Positions 25,780 to 53,884 of a DNA stretch of 64,000 nt are shown here, piece after piece. Every line of letters starts with the position of its first letter. Within the stretch, counting starts at the first letter, position 1. Origin of the DNA: Burkholderia seminalis DSM 23518 (lineage in GTDB: Bacteria > Pseudomonadota > Gammaproteobacteria > Burkholderiales > Burkholderiaceae); NCBI RefSeq assembly GCF_902832885.1, contig NZ_CADFDK010000008.1, positions 227,338 to 291,337 on the forward strand, in the 5' to 3' direction. A program made the translations under genes and the position numbers. The notes below the pieces were generated by a model, which ran no database searches, was not told where the DNA came from, and saw only the letters and a program-made list of their open reading frames with translations.

Positions 25780-27120
25780 TCATTGAAGCTCGACGCGGCG
25801 GATCTCGCCGACGACGAACAGGTAGCAGATCACGGCGACGAGCGCGTGCGCGACGACATAGACGAGCGCGCCGTTGAACGAGCCGCTGCGGTCGACGATG
25901 TAGCCGATCGCGATCGGCGTCGTGATGCTGGAGAGGTTGCCGCAGGTGTTGAGCAGCGCGCCGCTCAGCCCGGCGATCTGGCGCGGCGCGGTGTCTGCGT
26001 TGACCGCCCAGCCGAGCGCGCCGAGCCCCTTGCCGAAGAACGACAGCGCCATGAACAGCACGACGAGCACGTGCGAATCGGTGTAGTTGCAGACGATCAT
26101 CGACATCGACAGCAGCATGCCGGCCACGATCGGCACCTTGCGCGCGACCGACAGCGACCGGCCCTGCTTGAGCAGCGCGTCGGACACGACGCCGCCGAGA
26201 ATCCCGCCGAGGAACCCGCACACGGCCGGGATCGACGCGACGAGCCCCGCGTTGAGGATCGACATCCCGCGCGCCTGCACGAGATAGACGGGAAACCACG
26301 TGATGAAGAAATAGGTGAGCGCGTTGATGCAGTACTGCGCGACGTACACGCCGATCAGCATCCGGTTCTTCAGCAGCGCCTTCACGTGACGCATCGACGG
26401 GCCGCCGTCGCGTCCGCCCGTCGCCTGGTCGATGTTGACGAGCGCGCCGCCTTCGGCGAGGTAGTCGAGTTCCGCGCGGTTGACGTTCGGGTGGTCCTTC
26501 GGGTCGTACATCGTGCGGTTCCACACCATGACGAACGCGAAACCGAGCACGCCCATCACCGCGAACACCGACTGCCAGCCGAACGCGTGCACGAGCCAGC
26601 CCATCAGCGGCGCGAACACGACGGTCGCCGCGTACTGCGCGGCGTTGAAGATCGCGGACGCGGTGCCGCGCTCGGCAGCCGGGAACCACGCGGACACGAT
26701 TCGGCTGTTGGCCGGGAACGACGGCGCCTCGGCCGCGCCGACGAGGAAGCGCAGCCCGAACAGCAGCGCGAACGCGGCCGCGCCGCCGAAGAAACCGATC
26801 GCGCCCTGCAGCAGCGTGAACAGCGACCAGAAGAAGATGCTGAACGCGTAGACGATGCGCGACCCGTAGCGGTCGAGCAGCCAGCCGCCCGGCAGTTGCG
26901 CGACCACGTACGACCAGCCGAACGCGGAGAAGATGAAGCCGATCTGCACGTGGCTCAGGTGCAGCGCGCGGGCAAGGCTCGGGCCCGCGATCGCGATCGC
27001 CGCCCGGTCCGCGTAGTTGATTGTCGTGACCGCGAACAGGACGGCCAGCACGAGCCAGCGCACGCGCGTGCGCCGGACCGTTGCCGACGCGGACGCCGGC
27101 AGCGCGTGAAGCGGATTCAT
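25780..27120 (-). CDS. gudP: MFS transporter, glucarate/galactarate permease (GudP-like)
   Basis: Anion:cation symporter subfamily (ACS) major facilitator of 446 residues with twelve predicted helices. Typical ACS features: [19 protein letters not shown] after helix 1, [20 protein letters not shown] in helix 2 and loop 2-3, and the Asp-containing amphipathic signatures of hexuronate/glucarate carriers. The neighbour gudD makes D-glucarate the probable substrate. ATG 27120 is preceded by GGAGGAG. Its upstream region holds a 25-bp perfect inverted repeat that is a good operator candidate. Confidence 0.9.
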
Positions 27121-27297
27121 GACTTGTCTCCTCCGAAGGACGGAAGGTGCCGTCGTGCGGCGGGCGCGTCGGCGCGCGCGTGATGTTGTCGTATGGGTGC
27201 CGCCGGCCGGAGGCAGGGCACCGGGCGCCGAGTCGGGCAAGGCGTCCGGGCCATTCTGTCATGTCGAAAACTTCGCTTTCATGCCAATTGCTGACTT

Positions 27298-38340: not shown

Positions 38341-38437
38341 CGGAAGCCTGGGAGAGGGAGCGAAGGAATCCCCATCGTAGGTGCCCGATGTTTATGCGAC
38401 AATTGAAATATGTCTAACATGATTATGCGAGTTTGTT
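38341..38437. promoter_or_regulatory. Divergent promoter/operator region, MFS-LysR pair
   Basis: The 97-base spacer becomes strongly A/T-rich at 38385-38430. ATGT-CTA-ACAT (38410-38420) is an inverted repeat of the T-N11-A type that LysR regulators bind, and a wider ATGTT...AACAT pair brackets the A/T-rich part. I infer binding by the adjacent LysR protein. Confidence 0.5.
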
Positions 38438-39367
38438 TTGAATACGCGTGATCTCCTGGCGTTCGTGGCGGTGGTCGACAGCGGGTCGATGGTCGCCGCG
38501 GCCGCGAAGCTCCACCTGACGCAGCCGGGCCTGACGCGGCGTGTGCAGAACCTCGAAACGCTGCTCGGCGTGCCGCTGCTCGAGCGGCAAAGCAAGCCGC
38601 TGAAGCCGACCGCCACCGGGCGCGACGTCTACGCGCTCGCGCGCAACGTGCTGGGTGCGGTCGACGAACTGATGGCGGCGGGCGCGCCGGACAGCGAGCC
38701 GTCCGGCGAGCTGCGCATCGGCGTGCCGCCGTTCCTGTCCGAGCTCGCGCTCGAGCGGCCGATCGATCGGCTGCGCGACGCGTTCCCGCGCCTCACGCTG
38801 CGCGTGACGGCCGGCTGGTCGCCGGCGCTGATGCAGGGCATCGAGCGCGGTGCGCTCGACGTCGCGGCCGTGATGGTGCCGGCCAGTACGGTGCTGCCCG
38901 ACGCGTTCGCCGCGACGCTGCTCGCGACGCAGCCGACGGTGCTCGTTGCCGCGCGCGACTTTCCGCTGCCGGACGGTCCGCTGTCGCTCGACACGCTGTC
39001 GGGTTTTCCGTGGGTGCTGAGCCAGGACGGCTGCGGGATGCGCTCGGCGCTGAGCCGCGCGCTCGGCGCGGCCGGGCTGCCGTTCGACGTCGCGGTCGAG
39101 GCGTTCGGCTCGGAGCTGCAGCTCTCACTCGTCGCGCGCGGCGCCGGGATCGGCATCGCCGCGCCGAATGCGCTGGCACGCAGTGCGCATCGCGACGCAT
39201 TGAGGGTGGTGGAAACGGCGGGGCTGGAAACGCGGATCAACGTGTGGATCGTGCAGGGCACGCTGCCGGGCCGGCTGGTGCGGCCTGTCGCGCTGCTGCG
39301 CGACGCGCTGGGCGAGGTGCTCGACCGCGAGAACGGGGGAGGGTCAGATGCGGCAATGGCGAACTAG
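38438..39367 (+). CDS. LysR family transcriptional regulator
   Basis: Regulator of 309 residues. The N-terminal winged helix-turn-helix is typical (LLAFVAVVDSGSMVAAAAKLHLTQPGLTRRVQNLE), followed by the two-lobed effector-binding domain (ELRIGVPPFLSELALERPID). The start is TTG 38438; neighbouring ATGs are out of frame. It is divergent from the MFS gene and probably regulates it. An A/T-rich intergenic region and a candidate small RNA follow it. Confidence 0.92.
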   Translation: MNTRDLLAFVAVVDSGSMVAAAAKLHLTQPGLTRRVQNLETLLGVPLLERQSKPLKPTATGRDVYALARNVLGAVDELMAAGAPDSEPSGELRIGVPPFLSELALERPIDRLRDAFPRLTLRVTAGWSPALMQGIERGALDVAAVMVPASTVLPDAFAATLLATQPTVLVAARDFPLPDGPLSLDTLSGFPWVLSQDGCGMRSALSRALGAAGLPFDVAVEAFGSELQLSLVARGAGIGIAAPNALARSAHRDALRVVETAGLETRINVWIVQGTLPGRLVRPVALLRDALGEVLDRENGGGSDAAMAN

Positions 39368-39410
39368 AGGCAGCGTTCGAGGGAAAATCCTTATTTTCTC
39401 TACGGAAATG

Positions 39411-39439
39411 TTGCAATGCGGAAATCGATTCGATATAGT
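39411..39439 (+). promoter_or_regulatory. Promoter of a candidate small RNA
   Basis: TTGCAA (39411-39416) and TATAGT (39434-39439) are separated by exactly 17 bases. The only thing downstream before a terminator is ~60 bases of non-coding sequence, as OmpW is transcribed towards it from the other side. Confidence 0.7.
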
Positions 39440-39445
39440 GACACC

Positions 39446-39505
39446 TGTCTCCTCCATGTCTCCTCTGATATGGATTCAGCCCGCCGGTTAGGCGGGCTTT
39501 TTTTT
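39446..39505 (+). ncRNA. Candidate ~60-nt small RNA with repeated anti-Shine-Dalgarno motif
   Basis: Predicted start ~7 bases after the -10 box, end at a rho-independent terminator (AGCCCGCC-GGTTA-GGCGGGCT, 39478-39498, then eight T's). The 9-base motif TGTCTCCTC occurs twice, at 39446-39454 and 39457-39465. The second copy lies in the loop of a short hairpin (TCCAT 39453-39457 with ATGGA 39470-39474). CTCCTC is complementary to strong ribosome-binding sites, the usual seed of Hfq-dependent small RNAs that block translation. I do not know whether it corresponds to a small RNA already catalogued in Burkholderia. No open frame with a start fits inside it. Confidence 0.6.
39478..39505 (+). terminator. 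Terminator of the candidate small RNA
   Basis: AGCCCGCC and GGCGGGCT form an 8-bp stem with GGTTA loop, followed by a T run to 39505. It also terminates read-through from the LysR gene. Confidence 0.88.
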
Positions 39506-39551
39506 GCCTGCGATTTTGCCGCGGCGATCCATTCGTCGGCGCGCGCCGGCG

Positions 39552-40388
39552 TCAGAACTTGTACGTCATCCCGACGTAGCTGATGATCGGGTCCGCCTTC
39601 AGGTCCGATTTCGATTCCGCGAGCACCGAACCGTCGGCCGCCTTGATCGTCACCGTCGACGTCGTCTTCAGCGGGATGTACGTCACCGATGCGATCAGCC
39701 CGAAGTGCTCCGTCATGTTGTACTGCAGGCCCGCGTTGAACACCGGCTGCCATGACGACGACGCCTTCGCTTCCACCGATGTCGTCCCCGGCTTGCCCGC
39801 GCCCGCCGCGAGGATCGCGCCGAGGTTGTCCTGCGTCTGCTTGATGAAGTTCGTGTTGAGCTGCAGGTCGCTGAACCAGTTGTACGACACGCCGAGGCCG
39901 AGGAACGGCCGGAACTTCGCGGTCGCCTGCCCGAAGTAGTACTGCAGGATCACCGCCGGGCTCCACTGCCGCACGCTCTTCACGATCGGGTTGACCGACG
40001 CCAGCCCGATGTTCTGCGTGCCGAGCGCGCCGGCAGGTCCCGGCGGCTTGATCGTGCCCTGGCCCGACACCTTGAACACCGGCGGCACGCCCGCCACCGA
40101 CGTGACCGCGATGTGGTCGGTCAGGAAGTGGCTGACCGTCAGGCCGACGGTGTCGGCGCCGCTCGTGTGCAGCCCCGTGCCCGCCGACGTGAACGACGGC
40201 GGCAGCCGCAACGGCGTGTTGATCGGCGTCGGCGCGACGTTGGTCGTCATCGGCGTGCTGCTCTGCTGCGGCATGATGTGGAACCAGCCCAGCGTGACGA
40301 CGTTGCTGCCGGCGCTCTGCGCGTGCGCCGCGAGCGGCGCCAGCACGGCGGCGCCGGCCGCCGCGCGGAGAAGGGTTGTCTTCATCAC
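39552..40388 (-). CDS. OmpW family outer-membrane protein
   Basis: Outer-membrane beta-barrel of 278 residues. A signal peptide ends at HAQ (~residue 24). The mature part shows OmpW signatures: VGLTVSHFLTDHIAVTSVAGVPP, FGQATAKFRPFLGLGVSYNWF, and the C-terminal strand ending in Phe (YVGMTYKF) needed for BAM insertion. OmpW proteins form narrow hydrophobic channels; their substrates are poorly known. It is larger than E. coli OmpW (212 residues), with an insertion of ~40 residues after the signal peptide and a longer extracellular loop near residue 175-205. It lies 15 bases downstream of a DUF2957-type lipoprotein gene, probably in one transcript. Confidence 0.9.
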   Translation of the reverse strand: MMKTTLLRAAAGAAVLAPLAAHAQSAGSNVVTLGWFHIMPQQSSTPMTTNVAPTPINTPLRLPPSFTSAGTGLHTSGADTVGLTVSHFLTDHIAVTSVAGVPPVFKVSGQGTIKPPGPAGALGTQNIGLASVNPIVKSVRQWSPAVILQYYFGQATAKFRPFLGLGVSYNWFSDLQLNTNFIKQTQDNLGAILAAGAGKPGTTSVEAKASSSWQPVFNAGLQYNMTEHFGLIASVTYIPLKTTSTVTIKAADGSVLAESKSDLKADPIISYVGMTYKF

Positions 40389-40403
40389 GGCTTTTCCCTC
40401 CGC

Positions 40404-41645
40404 TTACTGGACGAATGCGCCGATCGTGAAATACGGCGTCGATCCCGCGTTGTCGAGGAAACCGAACACGCCACCCGAGAAGATGAACTTGCCGGTCGGC
40501 GACGTGCTGCTTGCGCCCGTGTGGGTCGTCGTGACCGTGCCCGGCACCTTCTGCGTGTAGTCGAGGTCGAGCACGCGCGTGAGCGACGCCTGGGACGGCT
40601 GGAACGGATCGAGCAGCGTCGCCTGGGTGTTGATCAGCGCGGTGGTCCGGTAGTTGAACTCGCTGTCGACGCCGATGTACTCGCCGTTCTGCGAACCGGC
40701 CGCGATCGCCGTCTGCGGCGCGAGGATCGAGATGCTCGATTCGTCGTCCGCGGTGAGGCCCGGCACGCCGTTGCTGTCCGGCGTCGGGTTCGGGTTCGCG
40801 ACGCCCGTGCGCACGAGGATCGGCACGAGCTGGTTGCGCAGCTTGCCGACGATCATGAAGCCCTTGCCCTGCGGCGTGGCCGACAGCGTCGGCTTCAGCT
40901 GGCTCTGGTAGTTGTTCGACTGGAACGCGCCGCTGCCGTCGGCGGACAGCGCGAAGTTCGAGCCCTGCTGCGTGCACGCGCCGCCGGCGAACTGGCCGGT
41001 CGAGTCGCACTTGGTCCACGAGCCGTCCGCGTTGATCGTCACCTTCGCGTCGATCGACGCCGGCGCGAACTTCTGCGACGGCACTTCGCCGAAGCCGGTG
41101 TGGCTGTACGTGCCGGCGACCTTCGTGATGTCGGTCTCGATCGACGAGAAGCCGATGAACGGGTAGTACGGGAATTTCGTGTCGGGCACCGCGGCCTGGC
41201 CGAGCACGCCGTCGAACTGGATTTCCTTGCCGGGGATCGTGCCGCCCGCGACGCCGAAGCCGACGAAGATCCGCGCCGGGCGCGATGCGTCGAGGCTCGC
41301 GCCGTTCAGCCGGAACGCGCACTGGTTCAGCTTGTTGGTCGGCAGCAGCGTTTCCTGCGTGAGCGTGCCGCTGTCGACGGTGCCCGCGCGGGTCGGCGTG
41401 ACCGTGCCGGTCGTGCGCGGCACGGCCGATTCGACGTACGTCACCTGCCAGGTCATCTTGGTCGTGTCGAGCTGGACCTTCGCGAGTTCGCCGCTGCCCG
41501 CGCCGCCCGTGAACACGGTGCTGTAGTCGAGCGTGGCGGGACAGAGCCGGTCTTCGACGAGCGGCGGCGGGTTGTCGCTGCCGCCGCCGCAGGCGGAAAG
41601 AAGGGGGGCGGCAAGGGCCGCCGCCAGAATGAGGTTGCGCTTCAT
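40404..41645 (-). CDS. Lipoprotein, DUF2957-type (second of a tandem pair)
   Basis: Protein of 413 residues of unknown function; family assignment to DUF2957 is from memory. Signal peptide with lipobox LSAC then GGGSDNPPP. The body is Gly/Thr/Ser-rich and beta-prone. It aligns with the upstream neighbour along its length: LCPA, GGAGSGE, TGTVTPTRAGT, CAF, FVGFGVAGG(T)IPG, FYPFIGF / YYPFIGF, LVPILVRTG, DDESSISIL and the end motif STPYFTIGAF. Both were therefore made by tandem duplication. Two cysteine pairs are possible disulfides. Position next to an OmpW-like porin suggests an envelope role. Confidence 0.75.
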   Translation of the reverse strand: MKRNLILAAALAAPLLSACGGGSDNPPPLVEDRLCPATLDYSTVFTGGAGSGELAKVQLDTTKMTWQVTYVESAVPRTTGTVTPTRAGTVDSGTLTQETLLPTNKLNQCAFRLNGASLDASRPARIFVGFGVAGGTIPGKEIQFDGVLGQAAVPDTKFPYYPFIGFSSIETDITKVAGTYSHTGFGEVPSQKFAPASIDAKVTINADGSWTKCDSTGQFAGGACTQQGSNFALSADGSGAFQSNNYQSQLKPTLSATPQGKGFMIVGKLRNQLVPILVRTGVANPNPTPDSNGVPGLTADDESSISILAPQTAIAAGSQNGEYIGVDSEFNYRTTALINTQATLLDPFQPSQASLTRVLDLDYTQKVPGTVTTTHTGASSTSPTGKFIFSGGVFGFLDNAGSTPYFTIGAFVQ

Positions 41646-41785
41646 GTTGCTCCTCCAGATTTGTCTTGTACGGCGGCCAGCTCCCTGTCGGCCGCTTCTG
41701 TTCGTCGTGCTCGTCCTGCTCGCGCCGTGCCGCGCGCGTCGTGCGTTACGCGACGGCGGACGGGCCGCCGCCGCGTCCCCGTTCG

Positions 41786-43222
41786 CTACTTGCTGATCTG
41801 CGCGCCCACGCCGAAGTACGGTGTCGACGAAGTCGTCGAGTTCGCCGACGTCGACGTGACGCCGCCGTTCACCGTGCCCTGGATCAGTGCCGCGTACAGG
41901 CCGCCCGTCGCGATCACCACGCCCGATGCGGACGGGTAGTTCGTGCCGGACGGCGGCCTCGGTGTCGTCGTCGCGTTCAGCAGGCCCGGCGTCGTCTGGC
42001 CGTAGTCGAGCGTGAAACCGTCTTCCTCGACCTGCGTGGACGGATTGATGAACGACGCGTTGCCGCCGCGGATCAGCGCGGCCGTGTACTTGAAGTTCGA
42101 GTCCGCGCCCGCGTAGCCGCCGTCGATCGTGCCCGACTGGATCGCCGTCGCCGCACCGAGCACCGCGATGCCCGATTCGTCGTCGACCTGCGCGTCGACG
42201 TGCAGCGGCGGCGTGCCGAGGTTCACGTTGCCCGTGCGCACGATCACCGGCACCGTCGCGCCGTTGAGCTGGCCGATCACCATGTGCGCGGTCGCCGACT
42301 TGCCGGTCGCGCCGACGATCGGCAATTGCGTCTGCGGCAGCGTCTGCGGCGCCTTCGTGCTGTCGAAGTAGCCGCCGTTCGCGCTCGTCTTCCACGGGTC
42401 GCCGGTCGTCTGGCAGCCGCCCGAGCCGCTCGACGTGCACGCGCCGTTCGCATCGAACGTCTCGCTCGAATTCGTGCCCTTCGTCGCGTAGTCGCCCGAC
42501 GGCACGAGGTGGTAGATCAGCGCGTTGTACGTGCCCGGCAGCTTCGACAGGTCGGTCGTCGTGTTCGCGAAGCCGAGGAACGGATAGAAGTCGAAATGAC
42601 GGTTGGGCACCTTGCCGACGTCCTTTGCCACCACGATCGGGCCGACGGCGATCGTCAGTCCGTCGTACTGGATCGTCGCGCCCGGAATGCCGCCGCCCGC
42701 GACGCCCATGCCGACCAGCAGCATCGGCGGGTTCGCCTGGTTGAAGTCGGCGGCCGTCGAATAGGTCGAGCCGTCCGGCGCGGGGCCCGTGCCCGGCGTG
42801 AGGACGAATGCGCAACGCGTCTGCTCGGCGGTCGGCAGCGTGCCGGTCGGCGGGTGGATGACCTTGCCGGTGATGGTCGTGCCGACGCGGCTCGGCGTGA
42901 CGGTGCCCGTCTTCAGCGGAATCGGCGATTCGAGCCACTTGAGCGTGTACGTCATCGCGACCGCGTCGATGTTGACGCTGACGATCTCGCCGCTACCGGC
43001 GCCGCCGAGATACGTGCTCTTCACGATGTCGGCGTTGGCCGGGCACAGCGCGCCGTTGATGGGCTGCGACGGCGGCGGCCCTTGCGTGCCGCAACTCGAT
43101 CCGGAACATTGGGGCGCGTTGATCGGCGCGAGCGCGCCGCCGGAGTCCCCTCCACCACATGCAACCAGGAAAGGGGCGATGGCAAAGGCCGTTGCCACCC
43201 CCTTCGATAAGGCGTGCGACAT
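41786..43222 (-). CDS. Lipoprotein, DUF2957-type (first of a tandem pair)
   Basis: Protein of 478 residues, paralogue of the gene after it. Lipobox LVAC followed by GGGDSGG. Shared blocks: LCPAN, GGAGSGEIVSV, TGTVTPSRVGT, CAFVLTPG, GMGVAGGGIPG, FYPFLGFANTTTDLSKLPGTY, VPVIVRTG, DDESGIAVLG, and the terminal SSTPYFGVGAQISK. Extra Cys pairs near residues 39-44 and 250-260 may form disulfides. Downstream gap of 140 bases contains no gene and only GC-rich sequence. TTGGAG precedes the ATG, and a TTGACA box lies upstream. No function is known. Confidence 0.75.
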   Translation of the reverse strand: MSHALSKGVATAFAIAPFLVACGGGDSGGALAPINAPQCSGSSCGTQGPPPSQPINGALCPANADIVKSTYLGGAGSGEIVSVNIDAVAMTYTLKWLESPIPLKTGTVTPSRVGTTITGKVIHPPTGTLPTAEQTRCAFVLTPGTGPAPDGSTYSTAADFNQANPPMLLVGMGVAGGGIPGATIQYDGLTIAVGPIVVAKDVGKVPNRHFDFYPFLGFANTTTDLSKLPGTYNALIYHLVPSGDYATKGTNSSETFDANGACTSSGSGGCQTTGDPWKTSANGGYFDSTKAPQTLPQTQLPIVGATGKSATAHMVIGQLNGATVPVIVRTGNVNLGTPPLHVDAQVDDESGIAVLGAATAIQSGTIDGGYAGADSNFKYTAALIRGGNASFINPSTQVEEDGFTLDYGQTTPGLLNATTTPRPPSGTNYPSASGVVIATGGLYAALIQGTVNGGVTSTSANSTTSSTPYFGVGAQISK

Positions 43223-52900: not shown

Positions 52901-53543
52901 ACTTGAGCGCGACCCACAGGCCCGAGTAGCGGCTCATCGCCCAGCCGTGCAGGCCGAAATCGAGATATTCCTGCACGTTGGACGGGAACAGCACGGGCAG
53001 GCCGCACGCCTTGAAGATGTGTTCGGACTGGTGCGCGAGCGTCGACGATTTCGCCGCGTGGTCGTCGCCGGCGAGCACCAGCACGCCGCCGTGCTGCGAC
53101 GAGCCGGCCGAGTTCGCGTGCTTGAAGACGTCGCCGGTGCGGTCGACGCCCGGGCCCTTGCCGTACCACATGCCGAACACGCCGTCGTGCTTCGCGCCGG
53201 GGTACAGGTTCACCTGCTGCGAGCCCCATACGGCGGTGGCGGCGAGATCTTCGTTGAGGCCGGGCTGGAAGACGATCTGGTGGGCCGCCAGATGCTGCTT
53301 GGCTTTCCAGAGCGACAGATCGAGGCCGCCGAGCGGCGAGCCGCGGTAGCCGGAGATGAAGCCGGCCGTATTGAGACCGGCGGCGCGGTCGCGTTCCTGC
53401 TGGAGCATCGGCAGGCGCACGAGGGCCTGGATGCCGCTCATGTACGCGCGACCGCGCTCGAGTGTGTATTTGTCGTCAAGCGTGACGGACTTCAGCGCGG
53501 CTTCTAGCGACGCGCGTTGGTCTGCGTCTAGCGGGGCATTCAT
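49953..53543 (-). CDS. Fused indolepyruvate ferredoxin oxidoreductase (IorAB-type)
   Basis: A single protein of 1196 residues that joins the alpha and beta parts of archaeal indolepyruvate:ferredoxin oxidoreductase. It contains a TPP-dependent pyrimidine-binding and PP-binding portion (for example MDRSTSTFSQMGGEGVPW), a 4Fe-4S ferredoxin-like motif (CEGCGDCSVQSNC with further Cys) near residue 650, a C-terminal gamma-type domain (VLVTGVGGTGVVTIGALLG), and a C-terminal helical extension. The reaction is CoA-dependent oxidative decarboxylation of arylpyruvates to arylacetyl-CoA. The PP/gamma fusion is the usual proteobacterial form. Adjacent to hppD and upstream of paa genes. Single gene. Confidence 0.92.
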   Translation of the reverse strand: MNAPLDADQRASLEAALKSVTLDDKYTLERGRAYMSGIQALVRLPMLQQERDRAAGLNTAGFISGYRGSPLGGLDLSLWKAKQHLAAHQIVFQPGLNEDLAATAVWGSQQVNLYPGAKHDGVFGMWYGKGPGVDRTGDVFKHANSAGSSQHGGVLVLAGDDHAAKSSTLAHQSEHIFKACGLPVLFPSNVQEYLDFGLHGWAMSRYSGLWVALKCVTDVVESSASVDIDPHRTEIVLPTDFILPEGGLNIRWPDPPLVQEARLLDYKWYAALAYVRANKLDRIEIDSPNARFGIMTGGKAYLDVRQALTDLGLDDDTCARIGIRLYKVGCVWPLEAQGAQAFARGLDEILVVEEKRQILEYAIKEELYNWPDGQRPRVFGKFDEKDGAGGEWSVPMGNWLLPAHYELSPAIIAKAIATRLEKFELPSDVRARIAARLAVINAKEMALAKPHVQTERKPWFCSGCPHNTSTNVPEGSRAIAGIGCHYMTVWMDRSTSTFSQMGGEGVPWIGQAPFTDEKHVFANLGDGTYFHSGLLAVRAAISSKANITYKILYNDAVAMTGGQPVDGVLTVPQITHQLASEGAKKIVIVTDEPEKYDSQKALLAPGVTVHHRDQLDDVQRELREIEGTTILIYDQTCATEKRRRRKRGTYPDPAKRVVINDAVCEGCGDCSVQSNCLSVEPLETEFGTKRQINQSSCNKDFSCVKGFCPSFVTVEGGQLKKPKAVSVDGNALPPIPEPTLPEIDRAYGVLVTGVGGTGVVTIGALLGMAAHLENKGVTVLDVTGLAQKGGAVMSHVQISHAPTDIHATRIAMGEADLVIGCDAIVTAGDECTSRMRHDTTRVVVNSAQTPTAEFIKNPNWAFPGLSAENDIRAAAGAAVDFIDANRFAVALLGDAIYTNPFVLGYAWQKGWLPLTLASLERAIELNAVSVEKNRAAFDWGRRAAYDLASVKQAAAGDARPAQGATVIALHTKKAVDALIAKRVEFLTAYQDAAYASRYAAFVDKVRAAERALADGDTVQEQLTEAVARNLFKLMAYKDEYEVARLQSDPAFLARLSAQFEGDWKLKFHLAPPLFAKTDAHGHLVKKAYGPWMMSAFRLLAKAKFLRGTGLDPFGRTEERRTERALIGEYEALIGEVLGKLNAANRPLALELAALPDGIRGYGHVKENNLRAVRRKWDTLLTKWRSPAGGQSHQQVA

Positions 53544-53884
53544 TAACTGTCTCCTCCACCCGGTCTGGGATCACCAAAACTTCGGTTGCGTCGGCATCTT
53601 TTGGATGCGTCGGCAGTGGCCGGCATGTTCGCCGGTTTTAAGCGATGGTAGCACTGGGGCAAACCCGCCGCCCATCGGTTCGAATGCGGTTGGAAGGCAG
53701 GTGGAATGGCGGCGGCGCACCGAAAAAAGGGGCGTGATGATGCGTTACATCATGTAAAAGCATGTAAAGCCGCGTCCATCTGCGAGCAAATGCCGTTAAT
53801 CTTGTCGGCCTGCCGGAGGTGCCCGGTCGCGTTGGCTCGTTTCGACGCAATCGGGGAGGCGCCGGCAGTTTTACAGGAGGTGCA
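53544..53884. promoter_or_regulatory. Region upstream of the oxidoreductase gene, with repeated TGTAAA
   Basis: About 341 bases without a gene. A tight cluster at 53735-53770 contains ATGATG-CGTTA-CATCAT (53737-53753), TTACAT-C-ATGTAA (53745-53757) and a second ATGTAA at 53762-53767. TGTAAA repeats resemble half sites bound by TyrR/PhhR-type regulators of aromatic amino-acid genes, though the classical TGTAAA-N6-TTTACA spacing is not met. It lies ~200 bases before the oxidoreductase start. Confidence 0.45.

Follow-up and report, generated by a model that had tools for sequence, protein, structure and literature searches.

A conserved RF02278 small RNA with two anti-Shine-Dalgarno stretches between a LysR-family and an OmpW-family gene of Burkholderia, taken as the orthologue of ncS03

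Which RNA, if any, is made from the short interval between a LysR-family regulator gene (38438..39367, + strand; Pfam PF00126 and PF03466) and a convergent OmpW-family gene (39552..40388, - strand; Pfam PF03922), and on what might it act? A sequence-only reading of the window (the whole 64-kb stretch of DNA analysed) had placed there a small RNA unit of its own and had called it unexplained. We consider it very probable that the element represents the ncS03 member of the RF02278 family of "toxic" or "double-hairpin" RNAs and, taken jointly with this, that a sigma-70-type promoter drives a ~60-nt RNA which pairs with extended Shine-Dalgarno sequences, blocks ribosome entry and lowers uptake and catabolism. 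The family, synteny, conservation, structure and complementarity of the element are established in the present analysis.

The promoter-like match (39411..39439, + strand) lies where it had been reported, with TTGCAA at 39411-39416, a 17-nt spacer and TATAGT at 39434-39439, and 38 bases separate TATAGT from the terminator stem that begins at 39478. It is the sole promoter-like match on both strands of 38400-40600 (shuffles: mean 0.2), and transcription likely starts near 39446. The claim that no gene lies between promoter and terminator was also borne out, as no known gene was found between the end of the lysR ORF (39367) and the end of the OmpW-family ORF on the other strand (39552). Such a sigma-70-type promoter would make an RNA of ~60 nt ending at its own terminator. 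The motif TGTCTCCTC is indeed present twice, at 39446 and 39457, and the pattern TCTCCTC-N2-6-TCTCCTC occurs once in the 64-kb window and in 0 of 100 shuffles.

For an RNA begun at 39446, positions 39446-39452 and the loop of hairpin 1 (39461-39466, UCCUCU) are predicted to be unpaired with a probability of at least 0.98, which leaves most of the first anti-Shine-Dalgarno stretch in a free 5' tail and places the second within that loop (hairpin 1: 39453..39474), in agreement with the claim that the second copy is exposed. The 5' end UGUCUCCUCC (39446..39455), which is the exact complement of GGAGGAGACA and identical in 30 of 30 loci (see below), extends with its final three bases into the foot of hairpin 1. 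Hairpin 2 (39478..39505), recognised from the fold and the family alignment, is an intrinsic terminator with a U tail, its stem at 39478-39498 being followed by a T run. The terminator stem by itself is not rarer than chance in the region searched (1 found vs a shuffle mean of 1.6); the fold of 39440-39510 as a whole has a stability far beyond that of 200 shuffles (z = -5.31).

The Rfam search that had been proposed gave a full-length match of 39446-39505 (+ strand) to RF02278, "Betaproteobacteria toxic small RNA", with 73.2 bits against a gathering score of 50 and model positions 1-64 of 64 covered. The layout agrees with the family in having two hairpins, the second an intrinsic terminator, together with a CU-rich tail and loop. 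It also agrees in being one of several dispersed copies per Burkholderia genome, the own genome holding five RF02278 matches at E <= 0.001, of which four exceed the gathering score and the fifth reaches 42.5 bits. Two other families fell well short of their gathering scores, namely RF02877 (NmsRb; 24.6 bits vs 52) and RF02837 (anti-hemB; 27 bits vs 49.5). In the published descriptions, the RF02278 RNAs appear as "toxic small RNAs" or "double-hairpin RNAs", that is, stand-alone base-pairing RNAs of ~60 nt with two anti-Shine-Dalgarno stretches, and the family is reported to be inhibitory to E. coli growth upon cloning (Kimelman 2012, cited by PMC4603805). The proposal of a base-pairing regulatory RNA is thus supported, and the element is what the literature describes under RF02278.

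The copy can be specified further by its position. A study that mapped transcription starts in B. cenocepacia J2315 lists ncS03 as a + strand RNA of 58 nt that belongs to RF02278 and lies between BCAL0197 and BCAL0198 in the orientation -> -> <- (PMC4603805), and BCAL0198 is termed OmpW-like in a passage of PMC10224339. The LysR-family gene and the OmpW-family gene of the window occupy the positions of BCAL0197 and BCAL0198, respectively, with the upstream gene co-directed and the downstream gene convergent. An SAH riboswitch (RF01057; 4774-4898, + strand; Rfam scan) serves as a further anchor, since it lies ~35 kb upstream of the small RNA on the same strand; the J2315 counterpart ncR1, between BCAL0144 and BCAL0145 on the + strand, is described ~52 kb upstream of ncS03 (PMC4603805), and it is in this distance that the two regions differ. 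The reported length of ncS03 (58-59 nt) and its two CU-rich stretches agree as well, and another B. cenocepacia strain carries the RNA after the same LysR gene. We therefore take the window element (39446..39505: 5' tail, hairpin 1 and hairpin 2/terminator) as the ncS03 orthologue, matched by family, gene order and strand, with the J2315 side drawn from published descriptions. Beyond the OmpW-family gene, the stretch 40404-41900 (- strand) has a DUF2957 match, and a further ORF at 41786-43222 (- strand) resembles that stretch by eye.

The word "unexplained" hence did not hold, because the family, the orthologue, the transcript and the likely mode of action are all in print. The element is already known both as a family and as the orthologous transcript ncS03, and reading the sequence by itself amounted to a clean rediscovery of a real conserved regulatory RNA and, seemingly, of a published predicted target. 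What the present analysis contributes beyond this is modest, namely an AT-rich dyad conserved at about -55 and the absence of the RNA from the LysR locus in five more distant relatives.

Scanning the named genomes with the LysR protein gave 38 loci. The RNA was found after lysR in 29 of the 29 Burkholderia loci with a LysR identity of at least 78% (L006-L034) and, by regular expression and Rfam scan of that locus alone, in 0 of 5 distant loci with 66-70% identity (L035-L039; Trinickia, Burkholderia sp. H160, two Bordetella MAGs and Caballeronia). L040-L043, which are partial LysR matches, were left uncounted; the Rfam scan of two of them, L040 and L042, gave no RF02278 match. With the window included, the 30 orthologous loci all share both UCUCCUC repeats unchanged, and all 40 columns of 39446-39485 are invariant, against 1 of 45 columns in 39506-39550. 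Variation among the Burkholderia loci affects the terminator loop and some bases of the promoter. Of the six columns in each promoter hexamer, 4 (-35) and 3 (-10) are invariant, and the mean identity is 0.91 and 0.96, respectively, vs 0.93 for the surrounding region, so that conservation of the -35 box does not exceed that of the adjacent sequence in these 30 sequences. A loss of promoter and repeats in close relatives, which had been named as evidence against the unit, was thus not seen, the repeats being intact throughout and both boxes being kept with some variation.

Conservation of the hairpins, also proposed as a check, was evident from compensatory changes at the level of the family. 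In an alignment of 27 members from this and other genera (a selection from the best matches of a sample of the order plus the own genome's five copies and two orthologues), 95.5% of the pair cells were paired and 9 of 14 pairs had changed on both sides, in members that were best-scoring and had been picked by a model that knows the structure. On four of five covariation measures 0 of 500 shuffles were as high as the alignment, while the fifth, the number of further pair types, was not beyond the shuffles (52 of 500 reached the observed value).

Published work on J2315 and on relatives bears on the expression and effects of such RNAs. The increases reported for ncS03 by qPCR were 8.0-fold in glucose medium, 3.5-fold at low pH, 2.9-fold in biofilm, 2.7-fold under osmotic stress and 2.6-fold in starvation (PMC5688073). 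In the same report, overexpression of the paralogue ncS27 slowed growth, and expression of an antisense of the ncS27 5' end led to faster growth. The published passages demonstrate Hfq binding for ncS04, not for ncS03. The paralogues ncS05, ncS27 and ncS62 share the plan of CU-rich tail, hairpin and terminator, both in the literature passages and in our alignment of the own paralogues, and differ in their loci and promoters; ncS27 is described as 92 nt long and can be processed to a short form (PMC5688073), and the own genome's ncS27-type copy has its -10 box ~37 nt before the tail. Beyond RF02278, S17S and the Neisseria sibling sRNAs are the nearest functional relatives among the RNAs compared. 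S17/S17S of Bordetella pertussis has a near-identical CU-rich 5' part and downregulates several genes, but S17S is processed from a longer RNA and is described as leaving exponential growth of E. coli unimpaired (PMC11722255). The Neisseria sibling sRNAs NmsRA and NmsRB are similar in having two anti-Shine-Dalgarno motifs, in repressing metabolic genes at translation and in their ill effects in E. coli (PMC5362039). They occur in tandem, whereas double-hairpin RNAs do not according to PMC5688073, and they belong to a separate Rfam family (NmsRb being RF02877), and since the NmsRb score is far below gathering, the likeness is one of action, not of membership.

We infer the direct targets of the ncS03-type copy, its blocking of ribosome-binding sites and its use of Hfq. 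The unpaired 5' tail would pair with extended Shine-Dalgarno sequences, best with GGAGGAGACA, and the loop of hairpin 1 would pair with Shine-Dalgarno sequences secondarily. Pairing would hit mRNAs for the transport and metabolism of carbon compounds and block ribosome entry, and uptake and catabolism would drop under certain growth conditions. The target prediction against ribosome-binding sites that had been suggested found GGAGGAGACA-N0-6-ATG at 11 places in the genome (reversed pattern: 1), one of them at the gene that the sequence-only reading had called gudP. Ten of the 11 sites were examined as loci, and nine of these head ORFs of at least 165 codons and one an ORF of 20 codons. Eight of the nine longer ORFs have a Pfam match (some being covered by the scan in part or just to the locus end): a periplasmic binding protein, a phosphatidylserine decarboxylase-type protein, a sigma-54 activator, a lactate-permease-family protein, a galactonate-type transporter, a member of the indolepyruvate ferredoxin oxidoreductase family, an OmpW protein and a CoA-transferase. 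The 11-nt tail is predicted to form local duplexes of -19.7 to -20.4 kcal/mol at nine GGAGGAGACA sites, energies that leave out mRNA folding and the cost of opening hairpin 1.

Two of these candidate sites lie in the window. GGAGGAGACAAGTCATG (27118..27134, - strand), in front of a galactonate-type MFS transporter gene, would form a 10-bp duplex with the 5' tail at -20.0 kcal/mol, and GGAGGAGACAGTTAATG (53541..53557, - strand), in front of a gene of the indolepyruvate ferredoxin oxidoreductase family, would form a duplex at -20.3 kcal/mol. The GGAGGAG reported in front of gudP is present before the ATG at 27120 (- strand), and the protein encoded there scores over the cut-off of TIGR00893, the D-galactonate transporter subfamily; gudP is therefore the reader's own name for a member of the galactonate transporter group. 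CopraRNA predictions for double-hairpin RNAs include the galactonate transporter BCAL0184 (PMC5688073, section 8). BCAL0184 stands thirteen locus-tag numbers before BCAL0197 and, judged by family and position, is probably the same gene as the transporter at 27120. As a separate observation, two of the eleven GGAGGAGACA-N0-6-ATG sites fall within the 64-kb window that bears the small RNA, with ~0.09 expected by size, a comparison that is post hoc and based on small numbers. The neighbours of the RNA were considered as targets and rejected: pairing with the ompW start was predicted at -11.7 kcal/mol, in a duplex that has a large bulge, and pairing with the lysR start at -2.8 kcal/mol, vs about -20 kcal/mol at the nine GGAGGAGACA sites, and control of the neighbours is thus not favoured.

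Shine-Dalgarno complementarity is expected of many mRNAs, so that target predictions of this kind are weakly specific, and an alternative explanation is that the RNA acts as a broad, hardly selective brake on translation, much as the 16S anti-Shine-Dalgarno sequence would if it were free, and slows growth by affecting numerous mRNAs at the same time. The reported toxicity of the family in E. coli and the attenuated growth upon ncS27 overexpression would fit such a brake, as would the abundance of partial sites, GGAGACA-N0-8-ATG occurring 187 times in the genome vs 5 times for the reversed control; the wider pattern GGAG-N3-11-ATG has 4743 matches vs 2397 (in these genome-wide counts, a start with two possible ATGs may count twice). 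However, the full 10-nt complementarity stands before an ATG at just the 11 places given above, a review states that the slowing of growth by ncS27 overexpression depended on the substrate, being seen with some and absent with others, and S17S is described as hardly toxic in E. coli (PMC11722255), so that toxicity is not uniform among the relatives. We therefore regard a general brake as rather unlikely.

The remaining explanations deny the RNA an existence of its own or give it a different product. Being on the same strand as lysR and starting 79 nt beyond its last base, the element might be nothing but the terminator and 3' end of that gene, yet it has its own promoter-like site, its tail and loop are completely conserved although a terminator does not need them, the family recurs at other loci, and ncS03 is listed from mapped transcription starts in J2315 (PMC4603805); we hold this explanation to be highly improbable. 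Even less credible is a functional product of the tiny ORF inside the RNA (ATG at 39456, 11 codons): its ATG is invariant in the 30 loci at the LysR site, but 20 of the 27 aligned family members have no ATG there (by eye) and the preceding bases are not a Shine-Dalgarno sequence.

Upstream of the promoter, the block 39379-39410 before the -35 box is conserved across Burkholderia and is UP-element-like. It holds an AT-rich dyad, GAAAAT-N4-ATTTTC (39383..39398, + strand; centre at about -55), exact in 28 of 30 loci, which could be an UP element or operator of the ncS03-type copy. Its position and composition recall an UP element; alternatively, it may be an operator for a regulator, and it could also form an RNA hairpin in the 3' end of lysR, but one without a U tract after it. 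Judged by eye, 33 of 41 Burkholderia genomes have the dyad at a distance of 63 nt before an RF02278 match; it is absent there in 4 (G009, G013, G059 and G063), and 4 were left unjudged (G021, G036, G039 and G064).

A dyad with one mismatch also precedes the C5 copy of the own genome (L002, ncS27-type) and looked like a common regulator site, an idea that was dropped after other copies had been inspected. Of 20 ncS27-type copies in other Burkholderia genomes, 19 had no closer match to the dyad in the 200 nt upstream than one with 3 mismatches, and one (L120) had a match with 1 mismatch; for 20 more copies, namely L147 and L148 (63-nt matches) and 18 that fall into the 68-nt class of L001, the closest match had 4 to 6 mismatches. 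Several ncS27-type copies (e.g. L111, L114, L124 and L128) carry an A run and a T run at a similar place with another spacing, which the fixed-spacing test does not count, so that the shared operator is not cleanly dropped. It is possible, if doubtful, that the paralogues provide one output on several inputs, with the same anti-Shine-Dalgarno tail behind individually regulated promoters; the ncS03-type copy would then answer through its own dyad or UP-like element at about -55, which is kept across Burkholderia and is not found in the same form before the ncS05-like and most of the ncS27-type copies examined. The common upstream motif described for three homologues in PMC5688073 may be the TTGCAAYGC region at -35.

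The fifth copy of the own genome (L005 1501-1569), the one below the gathering score, is divergent, and its second repeat is altered. In all 65 Burkholderia genomes searched, one or more matches exceed the cut-off, and the total per genome ranges from 3 to 7. In a sample of 200 genomes of the order, the family was matched at E <= 0.001 in 128, and the cut-off was exceeded in 75; none of 14 control genomes had a match. The sample maximum was found in three genomes of one other family of the order (G071, G120 and G242, with 9, 8 and 8 matches), and in G071 and G242 two of the RF02278 matches lie less than 1 kb apart.
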